Origin: Phaeodactylibacter xiamenensis
Lineage (GTDB): Bacteria > Bacteroidota > Bacteroidia > Chitinophagales > Saprospiraceae
NCBI RefSeq assembly: GCF_000759025.1
Contig: NZ_JPOS01000003.1
Span: 1 to 64,000, forward strand
Reading direction: 5' to 3'
Length of the DNA: 64,000 bases
Within the stretch, counting starts at the first letter, position 1; every line of letters begins with the position of its first letter. Below, one piece after another: positions 53,732 to 60,072 of this stretch. The translations under genes were made by a program, and so were the position numbers. The notes beneath the pieces were generated by a model. It had not been told where the DNA came from and made no database searches. It was given only the letters and a program-made list of their open reading frames with translations.

Positions 53732-53739
53732 TACATTTG
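53732..53739 (+). promoter_or_regulatory. Promoter -7 box of the cohesin protein gene
   Basis: TACATTTG matches TAnnTTTG, with a T-rich block (53709-53714) near the -33 position. Transcription would start near 53746, giving a 60-base leader. Confidence 0.5.
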
Positions 53740-53805
53740 TATCGTAATAATTCCAGGAACGCCCGCGGGATACTCCTGCGGAAAAAAGACAAAACAATTA
53801 TCTCC

Positions 53806-56800
53806 ATGAAAAAAATGATCTTAGGCATAGTCGCGCTTGTGCTCAGCACCTTTGCCCTGCATGCCCAGCAGAACTGTTTCAACCTTTTCATAGACAGTCA
53901 GACCGCATCGCCCGGTGATACGATTTGCTTATCGGTGCGGGTGAATAATTTCGACAACATCCTTGGCCTGCAAACGGCTTTCCAATGGGACACCACCCGA
54001 CTTGACTTTATAGAAATTTCTAATTTCAACCTGCCTGGGCTTATCATCCAGGATTTCAACGTAGAAGGTGGAAATATTGGGGAAGGCCGAGCTACTTTTG
54101 CTTGGTTCAATACAGACTTTACCGGTCTGGATTTGATGGACGGCACCGCAATATTCGATTTTTGCTTCGAAGTCATCGGGGACGATGGCTATGGTGGATT
54201 TCAATTCGTTTCGGCCAGTGATATCACGAACACAGAAATCATCCTGGGCAACTCAGAAATCCTGCCCAGTTTCAGCCTGCTCGGGGGCGGAGTCTCTATC
54301 GAAGATGGTTTTGCAGAGCCGGTAAGGTTTGCCAGCGCCTGCCAGGATTTGGGCGATTGTACCACAGGCAGCAGCCTCTCCGTAGTTGTTGCTGGCGGGA
54401 CGCCTCCCTACGATTATATGTGGCTGCAGGGCAATGCAGAATTTGGCAATGCCGCCAATCTCAACGATGCGCCTGCGGGCCTGTATGAACTTCAGGTTTC
54501 CGATGCGAACGGCGACCAAATTTCCGGCTTGTTTAATGTAACCCCTGAGGAAGGCATTGCGGTCAGCAATATTCTACTCAATCATCCTACTTGTAGCAAT
54601 AGCGATGGCAGCATACAAGTACAGGTTACCGGAGGCTCCGGCGACTATAGCTTTACCTGGAGTACCGGGCAAACCGATGCATACAGCATTTCCGGCCTGG
54701 CCGCTGGTGCTTACTCACTTACAGTTACGGACACTCAAACGGGCTGCAACTTTACTGTAGGCATTAGCCTGGAAGATGAACCGCTGCAAACCAGCTATGC
54801 CTACGAGTGCACCGTAATGCCGGATGGCAGCACAATCGTGGATATCTCCTGCGCTGTGTGGTCAGACGGGCAAACCCCTTATACATTCGAGTGGAGCACC
54901 GGCTATACAGAGACCACCGATGAAATCATAAGTACGCTTGCCGGGGTGAGCCCTGATCAGTCTTATTCTGTAACGATTACAGATGCGAACGGCTGTACGA
55001 GTATCCCGGGGCCGGCTACGCCCGAGTGTCCGGGCACGGGAGGTGACCCCACTATTTACGTTGCCAATGAAACGGTAACCGAGGGCGGTTCCATCTGTAT
55101 TCCGGTCAAAGCAAGTGGGGTCCCGCCTATTACCCAGCTGGATTTTGCACTGGCTTGGTCCACTGATGTCCTGTCCTTCACAGGCGTCAATGAAGGAGCG
55201 CTGACCGCCTTACTCGACGATGGGCTTGACCTTTCTCAAACCGGCAATGGGCAACTGACCGTGCAGTGGGATATCGACATCCCGGAAGGTCTGCCGATAC
55301 AGGAGGATGCTACGCTCTTTGAAATCTGCTTCGATGCGGTAGGCCCTGAAGGCAGCCAAACCGACATTGCCTTTAACGACAGCATCCTGACCAGTTACCT
55401 GGAAAGCGGGACTGAGGTAGCTGCTACTTTTGAGAATGGCAGTTGTACTGTTACGGGGGAATTCCTAACCGGCCATTCCATCAGTTGTACCGGATTCCCG
55501 GATGGTACTTTTTTAGCCTCCATATCCTGTGCGGTATGGAGTGGCGGGGTACCGCCCTACACGTTTGAATGGAGTACCGGATTCGTAGAGCAGGACACGC
55601 TCTTTTCCACCCTGGAGAATGTGCCGGAGCATGTTGCCTACAGCCTCACGATCACAGATGCAGCAGGTACAACCTACAGCCCCGCTCCGATAACACCGAA
55701 TTGCGGCGGTACAGGAAATTCCGCTACCGTAACGATTGGGGAAGCGGTAGTGAATACCAATACCAACTTCTGCGTACCCGTAACCGTCTCAGGTGCAGCT
55801 GAAGTCACTGGTTTTGAAGCAGGAGTGGCTTGGCTGCCAGGTATACTCAGCTATACCGGGATTGCAGGTGGCGTTCTTGGCGATGCGACCACCTTCACCA
55901 TTGATGACAGCGATTCGGATATTGGGCAACTGAGCCTGATTTGGAATGCTACCGCACCTGATGCTATTTTTGTTGAAGACGGAGATGTGCTCTTTGAATT
56001 GTGTTTCGATGCAATTGGGGATCCGGGCAGTTCCACCGGAATTAGCTTCAATGCGTCCACTCATCCCTTCCTATTAGAGAATGTGGAAGGCATTGAATTC
56101 ACACCGGTCAACGGCGGGGCTTTCATACAGGGCTCCGGAGGACCGGATGATGTGATGCTGCAGATCGGTAGCGCTATGGTGGACACTGGTGAGGTGGTTT
56201 GCCTCGACGTGACCGTTGAAAACTTCACGGATATCGGTACTGTACAGCTGTCCATCAACTGGGACGAAGACCGGCTCAGCTTTGACACTCTGATATTAGC
56301 CGGTAACCTACCCGGGCTGAATCCGGCAACAGACTTCAACCTTAATCTTACAGACGAAGGCATTATTGCCATGTCCTGGTTCGATCTCGGACTTAACACC
56401 GTGACCCTTCCGGATGGCGCACCGCTATTCACGCTTTGCCTGCGGGCAGACACCCTGCAGGGGCCCACTCCGGTGACCTTCTCCCCCACCCCGGTCAATA
56501 TTGAAGTGACAGACCTTGAAAACATCCTTCCCGTTGTCCTCCAAAACGGCACCGTGGATGTGCTGCAGCCCGAAGTCTGGCCCGGCGACACCGATGTGGA
56601 TGGGCTGGTGACCCACTTCGACCTCTTGAATATCGGGCTTGGCTTTGGCACGGTCGGCCCGGAGCGGACCGATGCGACGATTGTATGGGAAGCGCAGGTG
56701 GCACCGGGCTGGCAGAACGCCACGCCAACCTCCAACGTCAACTACAAGCACCTGGACACCAATGGCGACGGCTTCATTGATGCGGCAGATACCCTGGCGC

Positions 56801-57567
56801 TGGTGAACAACTGGGGCGAGGAGGTAAACTTCCTGCCGGAAGATGAAAACCGCACCCTGACAGGAGTCATCTATATCGAACCCGACACGGTGGTCCTCGG
56901 CGTCCCGGCTACCTTCAACATCATGCTTGGAGAGCCTGGCACGACCGTACCCGAAGTCTATGGGCTGGCGTTCACCATCGTATACGACACTTCCGCTGTA
57001 ACGCCGGGCAGCGCCTCCACTTCCTTCCTGGAATCCTGGATTGGCAATACCAACGAAGACCTGATCGGGCTTTCCAAAGACCGCTACGACGACGGCCGCA
57101 TTGATGTAGCCCTGACCCGTACCGATGGCCTCAACGCAGAAGGCAGCGGTGCCATTGGCCAACTGCACATTACCATTCAGGACGTCATTTTCATGCGAGG
57201 CAATGACTATCCACTCGACTTTGGCATTGAGAATATACGGCTGATCAATGCTGCAGAGATGGACTTCCAGCTGGAAGGGCTGCCTACTTCCGGATTAGTC
57301 AAAGATGGCCTGGTGAATGCGCCGGAAGCTGCTCAGGCGTTTAAGGTTCGGGCTTTCCCTAATCCAGCCAGGGATCAAATCAGCATCCTGGTGGAGGGTG
57401 CGCAACTGGAAAGCGCCCGCCTGATGGCCACTGATGGCCGTACCGTACAACAAATCCAGGGCGGACAGTCTGAGGTCAATCTGCAGCATTTACCGGAAGG
57501 CTTGTACCTGCTTCAGGTGTTGACCAGCGAGGGGGCGACTACCCATCGCATCATGATTGCGCGTTAA
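53806..57567 (+). CDS. T9SS-secreted multi-cohesin / SprB-repeat protein with dockerin-like segment
   Basis: This 1253-residue protein has a signal peptide (MILGIVALVLSTFALHAQ). Four cohesin-like domains begin near FNLFIDSQTASPGDTICLSV, IYVANETVTEGGSICIPVKA, TVTIGEAVVNTNTNFCVPV and MLQIGSAMVDTGEVVCLDV. Between the first three are SprB-like repeats (GGSGDYSFTWSTGQTDAYSI, PYTFEWSTGYTETTDE). A dockerin-like pair of calcium loops follows (GDTDVDGLVTHFDLLNIGLG, DTNGDGFIDAADTLALVNNW), then a fifth beta domain and a T9SS type A domain (AFPNPARDQISILVEG to THRIMIAR). The frame is open upstream to 53737, but the ATG at 53806 gives the signal peptide. It is followed 75 bp later by a dockerin protein. 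Confidence 0.85.
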   Translation: MKKMILGIVALVLSTFALHAQQNCFNLFIDSQTASPGDTICLSVRVNNFDNILGLQTAFQWDTTRLDFIEISNFNLPGLIIQDFNVEGGNIGEGRATFAWFNTDFTGLDLMDGTAIFDFCFEVIGDDGYGGFQFVSASDITNTEIILGNSEILPSFSLLGGGVSIEDGFAEPVRFASACQDLGDCTTGSSLSVVVAGGTPPYDYMWLQGNAEFGNAANLNDAPAGLYELQVSDANGDQISGLFNVTPEEGIAVSNILLNHPTCSNSDGSIQVQVTGGSGDYSFTWSTGQTDAYSISGLAAGAYSLTVTDTQTGCNFTVGISLEDEPLQTSYAYECTVMPDGSTIVDISCAVWSDGQTPYTFEWSTGYTETTDEIISTLAGVSPDQSYSVTITDANGCTSIPGPATPECPGTGGDPTIYVANETVTEGGSICIPVKASGVPPITQLDFALAWSTDVLSFTGVNEGALTALLDDGLDLSQTGNGQLTVQWDIDIPEGLPIQEDATLFEICFDAVGPEGSQTDIAFNDSILTSYLESGTEVAATFENGSCTVTGEFLTGHSISCTGFPDGTFLASISCAVWSGGVPPYTFEWSTGFVEQDTLFSTLENVPEHVAYSLTITDAAGTTYSPAPITPNCGGTGNSATVTIGEAVVNTNTNFCVPVTVSGAAEVTGFEAGVAWLPGILSYTGIAGGVLGDATTFTIDDSDSDIGQLSLIWNATAPDAIFVEDGDVLFELCFDAIGDPGSSTGISFNASTHPFLLENVEGIEFTPVNGGAFIQGSGGPDDVMLQIGSAMVDTGEVVCLDVTVENFTDIGTVQLSINWDEDRLSFDTLILAGNLPGLNPATDFNLNLTDEGIIAMSWFDLGLNTVTLPDGAPLFTLCLRADTLQGPTPVTFSPTPVNIEVTDLENILPVVLQNGTVDVLQPEVWPGDTDVDGLVTHFDLLNIGLGFGTVGPERTDATIVWEAQVAPGWQNATPTSNVNYKHLDTNGDGFIDAADTLALVNNWGEEVNFLPEDENRTLTGVIYIEPDTVVLGVPATFNIMLGEPGTTVPEVYGLAFTIVYDTSAVTPGSASTSFLESWIGNTNEDLIGLSKDRYDDGRIDVALTRTDGLNAEGSGAIGQLHITIQDVIFMRGNDYPLDFGIENIRLINAAEMDFQLEGLPTSGLVKDGLVNAPEAAQAFKVRAFPNPARDQISILVEGAQLESARLMATDGRTVQQIQGGQSEVNLQHLPEGLYLLQVLTSEGATTHRIMIAR

Positions 57568-57641
57568 CTTTAATTTCCTTTCGATGAATTAGTGGTGCTG
57601 CCTGCTTACGGGTGGGCAGCCCCTTTCAAAACCCGACTATT

Positions 57642-58232
57642 ATGAAAAATGTCATAACTCTGGTAGTGCTATGTTTATGTTCAGCTACCGTCTATGCTCA
57701 AACGGCTACGATTAGTGGCCAAATCACCCGACTGAATGACAGCCCGGTAAGCGGTATCTTGGTGCATCTCCTCAACTGGAATGAGGGGCTTATCGCAGCG
57801 GATACAACTGATACACAAGGTGCATATGCCTTCAGTGACCTCACGACCGGGCAGGAGTACACCGTTGTGCCTCAGGACAATCAGGAAGTCAGCTACCTGC
57901 AGGGCGTTTCCACCTTGGATGTGGTAATCGCGGCACGAATTATTCTGGGAATACAGCCACCAGAAACACCATTTGTTTACGCGGCGGGGGATGTCAACAA
58001 CAGTGGTAGCCTGACCACACTGGACCTGGTCCTGATGCGCCGGCTGATCCTTGGTATTGATAACAGTTTCCAGAACAGCCCTTCGGTAAGGTACCTGCGT
58101 ACAAACGCAAGTTTTATCAATCCTGACTCCCCATTTTCAGGCATCAACTATGGCAATTCGACCCTGCTTTTGGACACCGATACCCCTGCTTTCGACTTTT
58201 ACCAGATAAAAATGGGCAACCTCAACCCATAA
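57642..58232 (+). CDS. Secreted dockerin protein with carboxypeptidase-regulatory-like domain
   Basis: This 196-residue protein has a signal peptide (VVLCLCSATVYAQ) and a CarboxypepD-reg-like domain (ISGQITRLNDSPVSGILVHL). A type I-like dockerin follows, with one complete calcium loop (GDVNNSGSLTTLDLVLMRRL) and a degenerate partner (QGVSTLDVVIAARIILGI). It ends at YQIKMGNLNP without a sorting domain. Related proteins I recall continue further, so it may be truncated. An upstream TTG-type start (57612) is less likely than the ATG at 57642. Confidence 0.8.
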   Translation: MKNVITLVVLCLCSATVYAQTATISGQITRLNDSPVSGILVHLLNWNEGLIAADTTDTQGAYAFSDLTTGQEYTVVPQDNQEVSYLQGVSTLDVVIAARIILGIQPPETPFVYAAGDVNNSGSLTTLDLVLMRRLILGIDNSFQNSPSVRYLRTNASFINPDSPFSGINYGNSTLLLDTDTPAFDFYQIKMGNLNP

Positions 58233-58263
58233 GGGCCTCTACCCCATTATTATAATCCCATTA

Positions 58264-58422
58264 GACTATGTTGGGAATTCGCTTTTGGAGCGAATGCAGT
58301 CAAATTTTATTCTGAACAAGGCGCGATGAAGGAGCCTAGCCAAAGCTAAGCGACTGAAGAGCAACGAAGTGCAGGATAAAATTTGGCAAATACAGCCCAA
58401 AGGGTGAAATCCCAACATAGTC
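58264..58422. mobile_element. 159-bp palindromic MITE-like element
   Basis: Perfect 13-base terminal inverted repeats (gactatgttggga and tcccaacatagtc) are flanked by a direct TTA (58261-58263 and 58423-58425). Inside is a second inverted pair (caaattttattctg and caggataaaatttg) and a small attcgct/agcgaat hairpin. It has no coding capacity and is unrelated to the TA-flanked family. Confidence 0.8.
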
Positions 58423-58539
58423 TTAATCCCTCAGGGGCAAGCTGGCACTGAACTGCGCGCCTTGCCCTTATTTTTTTGAGGATTTGCCGACTGTGCCCGG
58501 CTGTTTTTGCTGTAAATCAGGATGGAACAGCTCTTAAAC

Positions 58540-58597
58540 TGAACGAATTAACGTTAATTCGTTCAACTAACTGAATAAATTAACGTTAATTTATTCA
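58540..58597. promoter_or_regulatory. Twin perfect 26-bp palindromes before the ATPase gene
   Basis: Two perfect palindromes occupy 58540-58565 and 58572-58597. Both are centred on aattaacgttaatt, with arms tgaacg/cgttca and tgaata/tattca, and their centres are 32 bp apart, about three helical turns. They end 9 bases before the ATG at 58607. They look like a double operator or a DNA/RNA binding site for the downstream protein. Confidence 0.75.
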
Positions 58598-58606
58598 AAA
58601 GCAGTC

Positions 58607-59746
58607 ATGGACTTCATTCCAAGATTTACAGAAGTACAGATAAAAGAATACCTGCGGCCCAACAAGGTGGTGGTGCTTCTGGGCCCACGCCGGGTGGGAA
58701 AGACGGTGTTAATCCAAAAGATATTATCAGAAGCCACTGAGCCTTACGTATTGCTCAATGGGGAAGATATTGCTACCAAAGAGCTCTTCGAAAGGAGAAG
58801 CGTCAAAGCGCTTGCTCAAATTCTGGAAGGCAAAAAGTTCCTTGTTATTGATGAAGCCCAAAAGATACCTGATATCGGTAATGCTATAAAGCTCATGATA
58901 GACGAAATCGCAGGGTTGAAAGTGCTCATCACCGGATCATCTGCCTTTGATGTTGAAAACTATACCGGAGAGCCTTTGACCGGCAGGAAGATGACTTTTA
59001 AACTATTCGGCATATCGGAAGGAGAAATCGCAAAAAAAGAAAGCATCAGGGAGCGCAAAGATGGTTTATATCAGCGCTTGATTTATGGCAATTACCCCGA
59101 GTTGCTGCAATTAGATACCATCAAAGAAAAACACTTGTACCTCCGTGAACTGCTCAACTCCTATCTGCTCAAAGACATCCTGACTTTCGAAACCATCAGG
59201 AACAGCGATAAAATCATTGACTTGCTTAGGTTGGTTGCCTTTCAGGTTGGTGGGGAGGTGAGCATACCGGAGCTATCTAATTCGCTTCAAATCAGCAGAA
59301 ACACTGTAGAAAAGTATCTTGACTTGCTCACCAAAGTATTTATCCTGTACAAAACGGGCGGTTTTAGCAGGAACTTGAGAAAGGAAGTCAATAAAAGCCA
59401 CCGGTATTACTTTCTTGATAATGGCATCAGGAATATCCTGGCGGGCAACCTTAACCCCGTAAATATGCGGAACGATATGGGCATTTTATGGGAAAACTAC
59501 ATGATCGCAGAGCGCATAAAGTATCAACATTACAACGACCTGCTTGTCTATAACTATTTCTGGCGAACTTACGATCAGCAGGAAATCGACTGGATAGAAG
59601 ACCGGGGCGGAGCACTATATGGCTACGAATTCAAGTGGAGCCCCCGAAAAAAAACCAAGGCGCCCGGGGGATGGAAGAACGCCTACCCGGATGCAACGTA
59701 TCAGGTAATCAACCCCGATAATTACCAGGATTGGCTGCTGCACTAA
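58607..59746 (+). CDS. AAA_14 / DUF4143 ATPase
   Basis: This 379-residue protein has a Walker A motif GPRRVGKT at about residues 26-33, Walker B FLVIDEAQKI at about 79-88, sensor TGSSAF and the arginine-containing TGRKMTFKLFG. A winged-helix-like segment (EVSIPELSNSLQISRNTVEKYL) and a C-terminal PD-(D/E)XK-like DUF4143 domain (EIDWIEDRGGALYGYEFKW) follow. Such ATPases are common, mobile-looking orphan genes of unknown function. The gene is preceded by the twin palindromes and stands alone. Confidence 0.88.
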   Translation: MDFIPRFTEVQIKEYLRPNKVVVLLGPRRVGKTVLIQKILSEATEPYVLLNGEDIATKELFERRSVKALAQILEGKKFLVIDEAQKIPDIGNAIKLMIDEIAGLKVLITGSSAFDVENYTGEPLTGRKMTFKLFGISEGEIAKKESIRERKDGLYQRLIYGNYPELLQLDTIKEKHLYLRELLNSYLLKDILTFETIRNSDKIIDLLRLVAFQVGGEVSIPELSNSLQISRNTVEKYLDLLTKVFILYKTGGFSRNLRKEVNKSHRYYFLDNGIRNILAGNLNPVNMRNDMGILWENYMIAERIKYQHYNDLLVYNYFWRTYDQQEIDWIEDRGGALYGYEFKWSPRKKTKAPGGWKNAYPDATYQVINPDNYQDWLLH

Positions 59747-60072
59747 TGCGAGCAGACCGAATGATTTGCTAGGTTTCTTGCCCCCTGAAGCCCTTGCAAA
59801 TGCTGAACTTTAAATGGTCAGGCATTTGCGGCTCAATCTACTATACCACACAGCGCCACCCCGTGGCAACAGGCTGGCGCTGTGAATTTCCATTATTGAG
59901 TAGCCTTTGGGAAAGCGTAAGACAAACGGTATAAGCTGCACGACTTCGTAGAAGTCGTATGTTAGTATCAACAGCACACCACGGGAAACCGACTTCGTAG
60001 AAGTCGCAGGTTAAACCAGCAAGCTCCCCTGCCTGCCTCATCTCTTCCCTCACCTCCTCACTGAACAAAGCC
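59747..60072. other. Intergenic region between convergent genes
   Basis: A hairpin (cacagcgcca, 16-base loop, tggcgctgtg; 59849-59884) may end transcription from either side. The two palindromes gacttcgtagaagtc at 59942-59956 and 59991-60005 are 49 bp apart, as in the arrays at 12638 and 14204. No gene is supported. Confidence 0.65.

Follow-up and report, generated by a model that had tools for sequence, protein, structure and literature searches.

The stretch of DNA analysed here (the window) comprises 64,000 nucleotides (nt) of the Phaeodactylibacter xiamenensis genome (contig NZ_JPOS01000003.1, positions 1 to 64,000) and carries, near one end, two palindromes directly in front of the gene for an AAA_14-DUF4143 ATPase of 379 amino acids (58607-59746, forward strand). 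The ATPase encoded directly downstream of the palindromes probably binds them and would thereby control its own gene, most likely by repression. The palindromes are most likely the ATPase's own sites because the letters of their outer arms covary with residues of the winged helix-turn-helix (wHTH) domain of the protein, and because rules of this kind succeeded in a prospective test. An earlier first-pass annotation of the window had proposed autoregulation, or sites targeted by the ATPase; the covariation supports this and points to the ATPase as the binder, and autoregulation itself is what we infer from it. That annotation contained neither the assignment of the family to a named defence candidate nor the gene-specific nature of the arms.

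Twin palindromes and their linkage to the gene

Palindrome 1 of the proposed operator (58540-58565, strandless; TGAACGAATTAACGTTAATTCGTTCA) is formed by the half-site TGAACGAATT (58540-58549) and its reverse (58556-58565), and palindrome 2 (58572-58597, also strandless; TGAATAAATTAACGTTAATTTATTCA) by TGAATAAATT (58572-58581) and its reverse (58588-58597). Both are perfect over 26 bp and have in common a core of 14 bases, AATTAACGTTAATT. Their centres are 32 bp apart, and 9 bp separate the end of the second one from the ATG at 58607, so that the geometry described in the first-pass annotation was confirmed throughout. No other perfect palindrome without a loop reaches 16 bp anywhere in the window. 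A chance origin was ruled out by 30 Markov shuffles of the window, in each of which the longest palindrome measured between 12 and 20 bp. A wide regulon was not found either: neither the 14-base core nor, even when up to 3 mismatches are tolerated, the 26-base pattern has a further copy in the 7.87-Mb genome. In the sister genome the same locus (L018; 97% protein identity and the same neighbours, one of which is presumably metK) differs from the window at 1 of the 52 palindrome bases, compared with 35 of 132 aligned columns in the rest of 58424-58606.

Relatives of the gene were found with the window protein (244, in sets 1, 2 and 3). Near the start codon the palindrome score reached 10 or more of 13 pairs in 61/80 relatives, against 2/302 other stretches of the same loci and 104/1600 shuffles. 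A stricter inverted-repeat score of at least 10 was reached at 6 of the 12 own paralogues, 37/79 relatives and 34/65 genes of a wider phylum sample, and in 0.6-2.1% of the control shuffles. The usual design is a 6-nt arm, AATT, 6 nt, AATT and the reversed arm, which makes 26 bp with a period of 32 bp. In a blind search for this 32-bp register, the 99% shuffle threshold was exceeded by 60/80, 81/109 and 33/55 relatives of sets 1, 2 and 3, or 174/244 together (L170 is probably the L020 locus and thus counted twice), and by 6 of the 12 own paralogues; in the wider phylum sample the design was present in 10/65. Operator runs consist of 2-8 half-sites, i.e. 1-4 palindromes. The lack of palindromes before orthologues, named in the first-pass annotation as a refutation, did not hold, since most relatives that the window protein retrieved do have palindromes in front of them.

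The generality of the design has limits. In distant subfamilies the inverted repeats often have another spacing, as judged by eye. Among 16 plasmid-borne relatives, picked among 60 of 262 records, only five showed a significant repeat (p <= 0.02), namely those of Agrobacterium, Thermus and Moraxella and two from Bacteroidota, Spirosoma and Runella. On the Thermus thermophilus plasmid pTT27 a DUF4143 gene (L362) has a 9-bp inverted repeat upstream. Two decayed DUF4143 gene fragments of the P. xiamenensis genome (L013, L015) contain in-frame stops, yet a clear inverted repeat can be seen by eye in front of them.

The sequence statistics also establish the linkage of the sites to the gene. The window palindrome was present in 4 of 39 related genomes: in this genome and two others (G733, G407) it lies beside the gene, and in the fourth (G730) beside a remnant (L341, about 1505-1800) which keeps residues 1-38 and 323-378, the part between being deleted, and which still has two diverged palindromes in front. 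A wide occurrence of the same palindromes without the gene, the other refutation that had been named, was thus not seen in the 39 genomes, where they occur only beside the gene or its remnant. At two loci (L019, and L020 of Neolewinella aquimaris DSM 105137) the stretch of DNA that resembles the window starts with the operator and breaks off within the gene. The gene itself is patchy, with matches at E <= 1e-60 in 89 of 395 genomes of the class, and multicopy, with 15 DUF4143 matches in this genome. Across relatives the sites are linked to the gene and lie at its promoter, as is expected of an autoregulatory operator; for the window gene itself no promoter was located.

Covariation of the arms with the winged-helix domain

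The inner AATT is common to the operators, and the outer arm bases vary between genes, tracking the winged-helix domain of the protein that each gene encodes. In the AlphaFold2 model of the window protein this domain spans residues 200-269 (59204-59413, forward strand, as for all protein features below), with helices 200-213, 220-227 and 231-243 and strands 247-252 and 265-269; helix 231-243 is the recognition helix. When the loci were sorted by the motif at its start, the arms followed: SKNT was found with TGAC, SRNT with TGAA, S[GSVT]NT with TGAG or TGAA, DKNT with TCAC, D.KT mostly with TCC and DNET with CGC.

The residue-base pairs were also ranked in an unbiased mutual-information screen. 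Of 164 loci, 158 could be parsed (L013, L014, L015, L127, L129 and L143 were lost); 69 of these had the 26-bp pair, and 68 entered the first screen after removal of L008. Among 2274 residue-base pairs, S230 with arm base 2 ranked first and R231 with base 4 second. Set 2 consisted of 109 of the listed places, L170 being dropped from the covariation as more than 90% identical to set 1. With 146 loci, the pairs N232-base 3, P221-base 5, I220-base 6, R231-base 4 and S230-base 2 took ranks 1, 2, 4, 5 and 11. Kinship was controlled with a tree built from the alignment minus residues 200-265, from which 86 path-disjoint pairs of 180 loci were drawn; this test and the 146-locus screen leave out the wide phylum sample (L100-L168). 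N232-base 3 came first of 334 columns (P = 9.6e-12), the base changing in 19 of 22 pairs with a residue change versus 5 of 64 without, and R231-base 4 was likewise first of 334 columns for its base (P = 1.4e-7). P221-base 5 ranked third. The covarying residues are I220 and P221 (59264-59269) at the start of helix 2, of which 221 goes with arm base 5 and 220 with base 6 in the mutual-information screen only, and S230, R231 and N232 (59294-59302) at the start of the recognition helix, which go with bases 2, 4 and 3, respectively. The starts of helices 2 and 3 of a winged helix, where the model places them, are the usual place of base contacts. The covariation of the arms with the protein's own putative DNA-reading residues is in this way established statistically.

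Rules for predicting the arm from the protein were fixed after sets 1 and 2 and before set 3 was fetched. Set 3, which was made up of phylum-sample genes and further class-sample genes, held 55 loci, 33 with an operator call and 22 below threshold; L290, L296, L297, L299 and L300 had already been seen and were excluded, and L294 was dropped (>90% identical). In this set 57 of 73 predicted arm bases were right; with the arms shuffled among loci, 2000 trials averaged 32.6 and never exceeded 45. Base 4 was right in 20/20 and base 3 in 16/21 cases. The errors concern mainly N230 proteins and arrays of apparently wrong register; three loci that look mis-registered (L321, L323, L330) were counted as errors.

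The arms differ between paralogues within one genome. In within-genome pairs compiled by hand from 35 genomes (the arms of L007, L272 and L279 are doubtful), none of 26 had arms within one mismatch, against 2.7 expected from identity-matched pairs. This separation of the arms is suggestive only.

Promoter position, proposed mechanism and alternatives

The Bacteroidota -7 box, TANNTTTG, occurs within 90 nt upstream in 132/318 loci, against 25.3 expected. In 70 of the 100 loci that have both a box and an operator, the box starts at phase 11-15 of the 32-bp unit, close to the point where the palindrome is centred. The start-proximal half-site ends a median of 13.5 bases before the ATG. The register of the box in the operator fits a predicted occlusion of the promoter in many relatives.

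The mechanism that we propose would begin with a protein that combines a STAND/Orc-like AAA+ ATPase, a winged helix and a PD-(D/E)XK-like C-terminal domain. One 26-bp palindrome would be read by a pair of subunits, the outer arm, which varies, by the start of the recognition helix and the common AATT probably by the basic and conserved wing. Since the sites recur every 32 bp, or three helical turns, neighbouring pairs would lie on one face of the DNA and cooperative assembly is possible. Binding at its own promoter most likely holds expression low until a trigger alters the state of the protein. Because paralogues have different arms, each circuit can be kept apart from the others. That the protein physically binds the sites, that it represses and does not activate, that neighbouring pairs cooperate, that a trigger acts and that the protein serves in defence is what we infer from these data.

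Several observations weigh against this reading. An inverted repeat of score at least 10 also occurs at 9 of 92 control genes, and an operator call is absent in 70 of the 244 relatives and in 55 of the 65 genes of the wider phylum sample. At arm bases 2 and 6 the residue-base code is less strong: S230-base 2 ranks only tenth in the path-disjoint test, in whose 86 pairs base 6 finds no partner in the wHTH, and base 2 was right in only 21/32 cases of set 3. L023 and L291 violate the residue-base rules. Single columns learnt on set 1, which held few D230 and K232 proteins, predict set 2 poorly, other columns being better for base 2, and this counts against the simplest form of the code. The -7 box lies inside the called operator in only 51/100 loci, and upstream of the window gene no convincing box could be made out.

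The ATPase could instead bind the palindromes as an activator, or as the seed of an ATP-driven assembly for an effector function, and its own gene would then not be repressed; covariation tells only which protein binds, the likeness to STAND and Orc/Cdc6 ATPases and the tandem sites at a 32-bp period suit assembly, and the -7 box lies outside the called operator in 49/100 loci. The operator register of the box in 70/100 loci and the proximal half-site end, at the usual position of a repressor, speak against this, and we consider it unlikely. That a separate regulator binds the palindromes, for example a TetR-like protein, is much less probable still. Arms like TGAACG and TGAATG are similar to some TetR-family operators, but the arm follows the wHTH residues of the ATPase itself, which at two bases come first of 334 columns; moreover, paralogues in one genome have different arms and the 26-base site is unique in the genome.

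The repeats might also work as leader RNA hairpins, since a perfect palindrome can fold on itself in RNA and the inverted repeat of several relatives reaches the ATG. The loopless symmetry, the fixed period of 32 bp and the covariation with the wHTH are unexpected for an RNA element, and many loci have sites that overlap the -7 box and would thus lie at or before the transcript start, which makes a hairpin highly improbable. Nor do we give more credence to the idea that the gene travels on a mobile element of which the palindromes are the ends or the insertion sites. The gene's patchy and multicopy occurrence is in favour of such an element, as is the similarity of L019 and L020 to the window, which starts at the operator and stops in the gene. 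A search for repeats over 58300-59900, however, gave copies upstream only and none behind the gene, where a terminal repeat would be required, and the arms track the wHTH and not a transposase or the flanks. Autoregulation by the ATPase through its own palindromes remains the likely reading.

The ATPase, its family and related systems

The window protein scores above both Pfam gathering thresholds, with 127.8 bits for DUF4143 (PF13635; threshold 28.1) and 90.6 for AAA_14 (PF13173; threshold 27), and the PADLOC model PDLC04789 (PDC-S01) covers its residues 4-377 with an E value of 1.3e-150. NCBIfam and PHROGs gave weak matches to other families only. By sequence, none of the solved structures matches the protein over its whole length. 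The AlphaFold2 model, built with 25 sequences, has a mean predicted local distance difference test score (pLDDT) of 87 and a predicted template modelling score (pTM) of 0.87, and shows an AAA+ core, then a winged helix and, at the C-terminus, a mixed domain. The AAA_14 ATPase domain (residues 19-141, 58661-59029) has invariant G31, K32 and T33 as well as D82 and E83. In the wing (residues 253-264, 59363-59398, placed by the model), F253, S254, N256, L257, R258, E260 and K263 are invariant in the 25 sequences, and it is this element that we propose, from the model, as the reader of the common AATT.

The C-terminal domain (residues 280-379, 59444-59743) resembles PD-(D/E)XK enzymes. The catalytic pattern, D followed by E-x-K, is conserved as D328, E341 and K343, and together with E296 these residues are invariant in the 25 sequences. 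When the domain was modelled alone, its best fold matches were mostly PD-(D/E)XK nucleases, with modest Z scores, all below 8 (Can2, 6.6; EndoMS, 5.9; McrBC, 5.8; Hjc, 5.3; EcoRV, 5.2); a Foldseek search with the domain gave no match at E <= 0.001. The nuclease-like C-terminus suspected in the first-pass annotation is supported by the invariant residues and this modest fold match.

For residues 1-280 the best fold matches are two archaeal STAND-type ATPases, 2FNA (SSO1545) and 2QEN (PABY2304), at a Z score of 16.4 and a root-mean-square deviation (rmsd) of 3.4-3.5 over 257-259 residues, but with about 20% sequence identity; their entries, compared by title only, name no DNA site. NLR and CED-4 proteins follow, within the Z range of 14-16 that also includes 2FNA and 2QEN. 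The modelled layout, an AAA+ core followed by helical and winged-helix domains, is that of STAND/MNS-type AAA+ proteins, in agreement with these matches. Orc1/Cdc6 initiators (Z about 12) combine AAA+ and winged-helix domains like the window protein but have no PD-(D/E)XK domain. Initiator genes are located near their own repeated binding sites; nothing suggests an origin of replication at the window locus. Autorepressing partition ATPases such as P1 ParA have another ATPase fold, and they differ from the window protein by the lack of a nuclease domain and by their role in plasmid partition. RepA of the repABC operons is another autorepressing partition ATPase, and the available text describes several paralogues per genome, each specific for the control of its own operon (PMC4492784). 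In the accessible parts of two further reports, BrxR and CapW are winged-helix/WYL regulators that control a defence system at a palindromic site (PMC9122589, PMC9122588); these are separate regulator proteins, whereas the window protein has the DNA reader, the ATPase and the nuclease-like domain in one chain.

PDC-S01 is a candidate single-gene defence family of PADLOC that the window protein matches nearly end to end. In the available portions of one survey it is the fourth most common defence across all prokaryotes, with 29,494 occurrences in Bacteria and 9,986 in Archaea, and is described as an ATPase fused to a PD-(D/E)-X-K domain (PMC12988326), much as predicted for the window protein; in those of a second it is the most frequent individual locus in rumen genomes (PMC13356809). 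The linked operator, the 32-bp design and the residue-to-base code of the present locus were not found in the portions of PMC12988326 available. Our literature search on the family, which did not extend to bioRxiv and most subscription papers and so is weak evidence of absence, found no linked operator, recognition code or mechanism for it. As far as the accessible text of one study reports, the Thermus AAA_14-DUF4143 gene TT_P0211 was up 6.6-fold in HB27 with plasmid, with no such change without Argonaute (PMC4406477). We take this rise as a hint that such genes are regulated, and we do not equate TT_P0211 with the pTT27 gene mentioned above.

An autoregulatory operator is a known kind of element; what is new here is that a candidate defence ATPase whose C-terminal domain is nuclease-like would carry it, and that the private sites have diversified together with recognition-helix residues. 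A gene-linked site with a readable code is a definite piece of DNA on which binding, ATPase and nuclease activity can be assayed. The code permits the prediction of sites for many members of the subfamily from a few residues, it suggests how many paralogues can share one cell, and studies of DNA recognition gain from it a naturally diversified series of winged-helix specificities. More speculatively, and with little confidence, the arm could serve as a molecular address: each PDC-S01 protein would silence itself and detect or attack incoming DNA (rival copies, plasmids, phages) bearing the same address, and the addresses would diversify through a few recognition-helix residues, avoiding cross-talk or mutual attack among copies in one cell. 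In a phage collection, eight records from human faecal samples (MT836252 and seven others) encode relatives of the ATPase.

Upstream of the operator lies a 160-bp element (58263-58423) resembling a miniature inverted-repeat transposable element, with imperfect 29-nt terminal inverted repeats (AGACTATGTTGGG and CCCAACATAGTCT); it is missing at the equivalent site of the sister locus (around 2318-2320 of L018). Two neighbouring genes, at 53737-57567 and 57612-58232, look like those of a large protein made of repeats and of a secreted, dockerin-like protein (motif GDVNNSGSLTTLDLVLMRRLIL), respectively.
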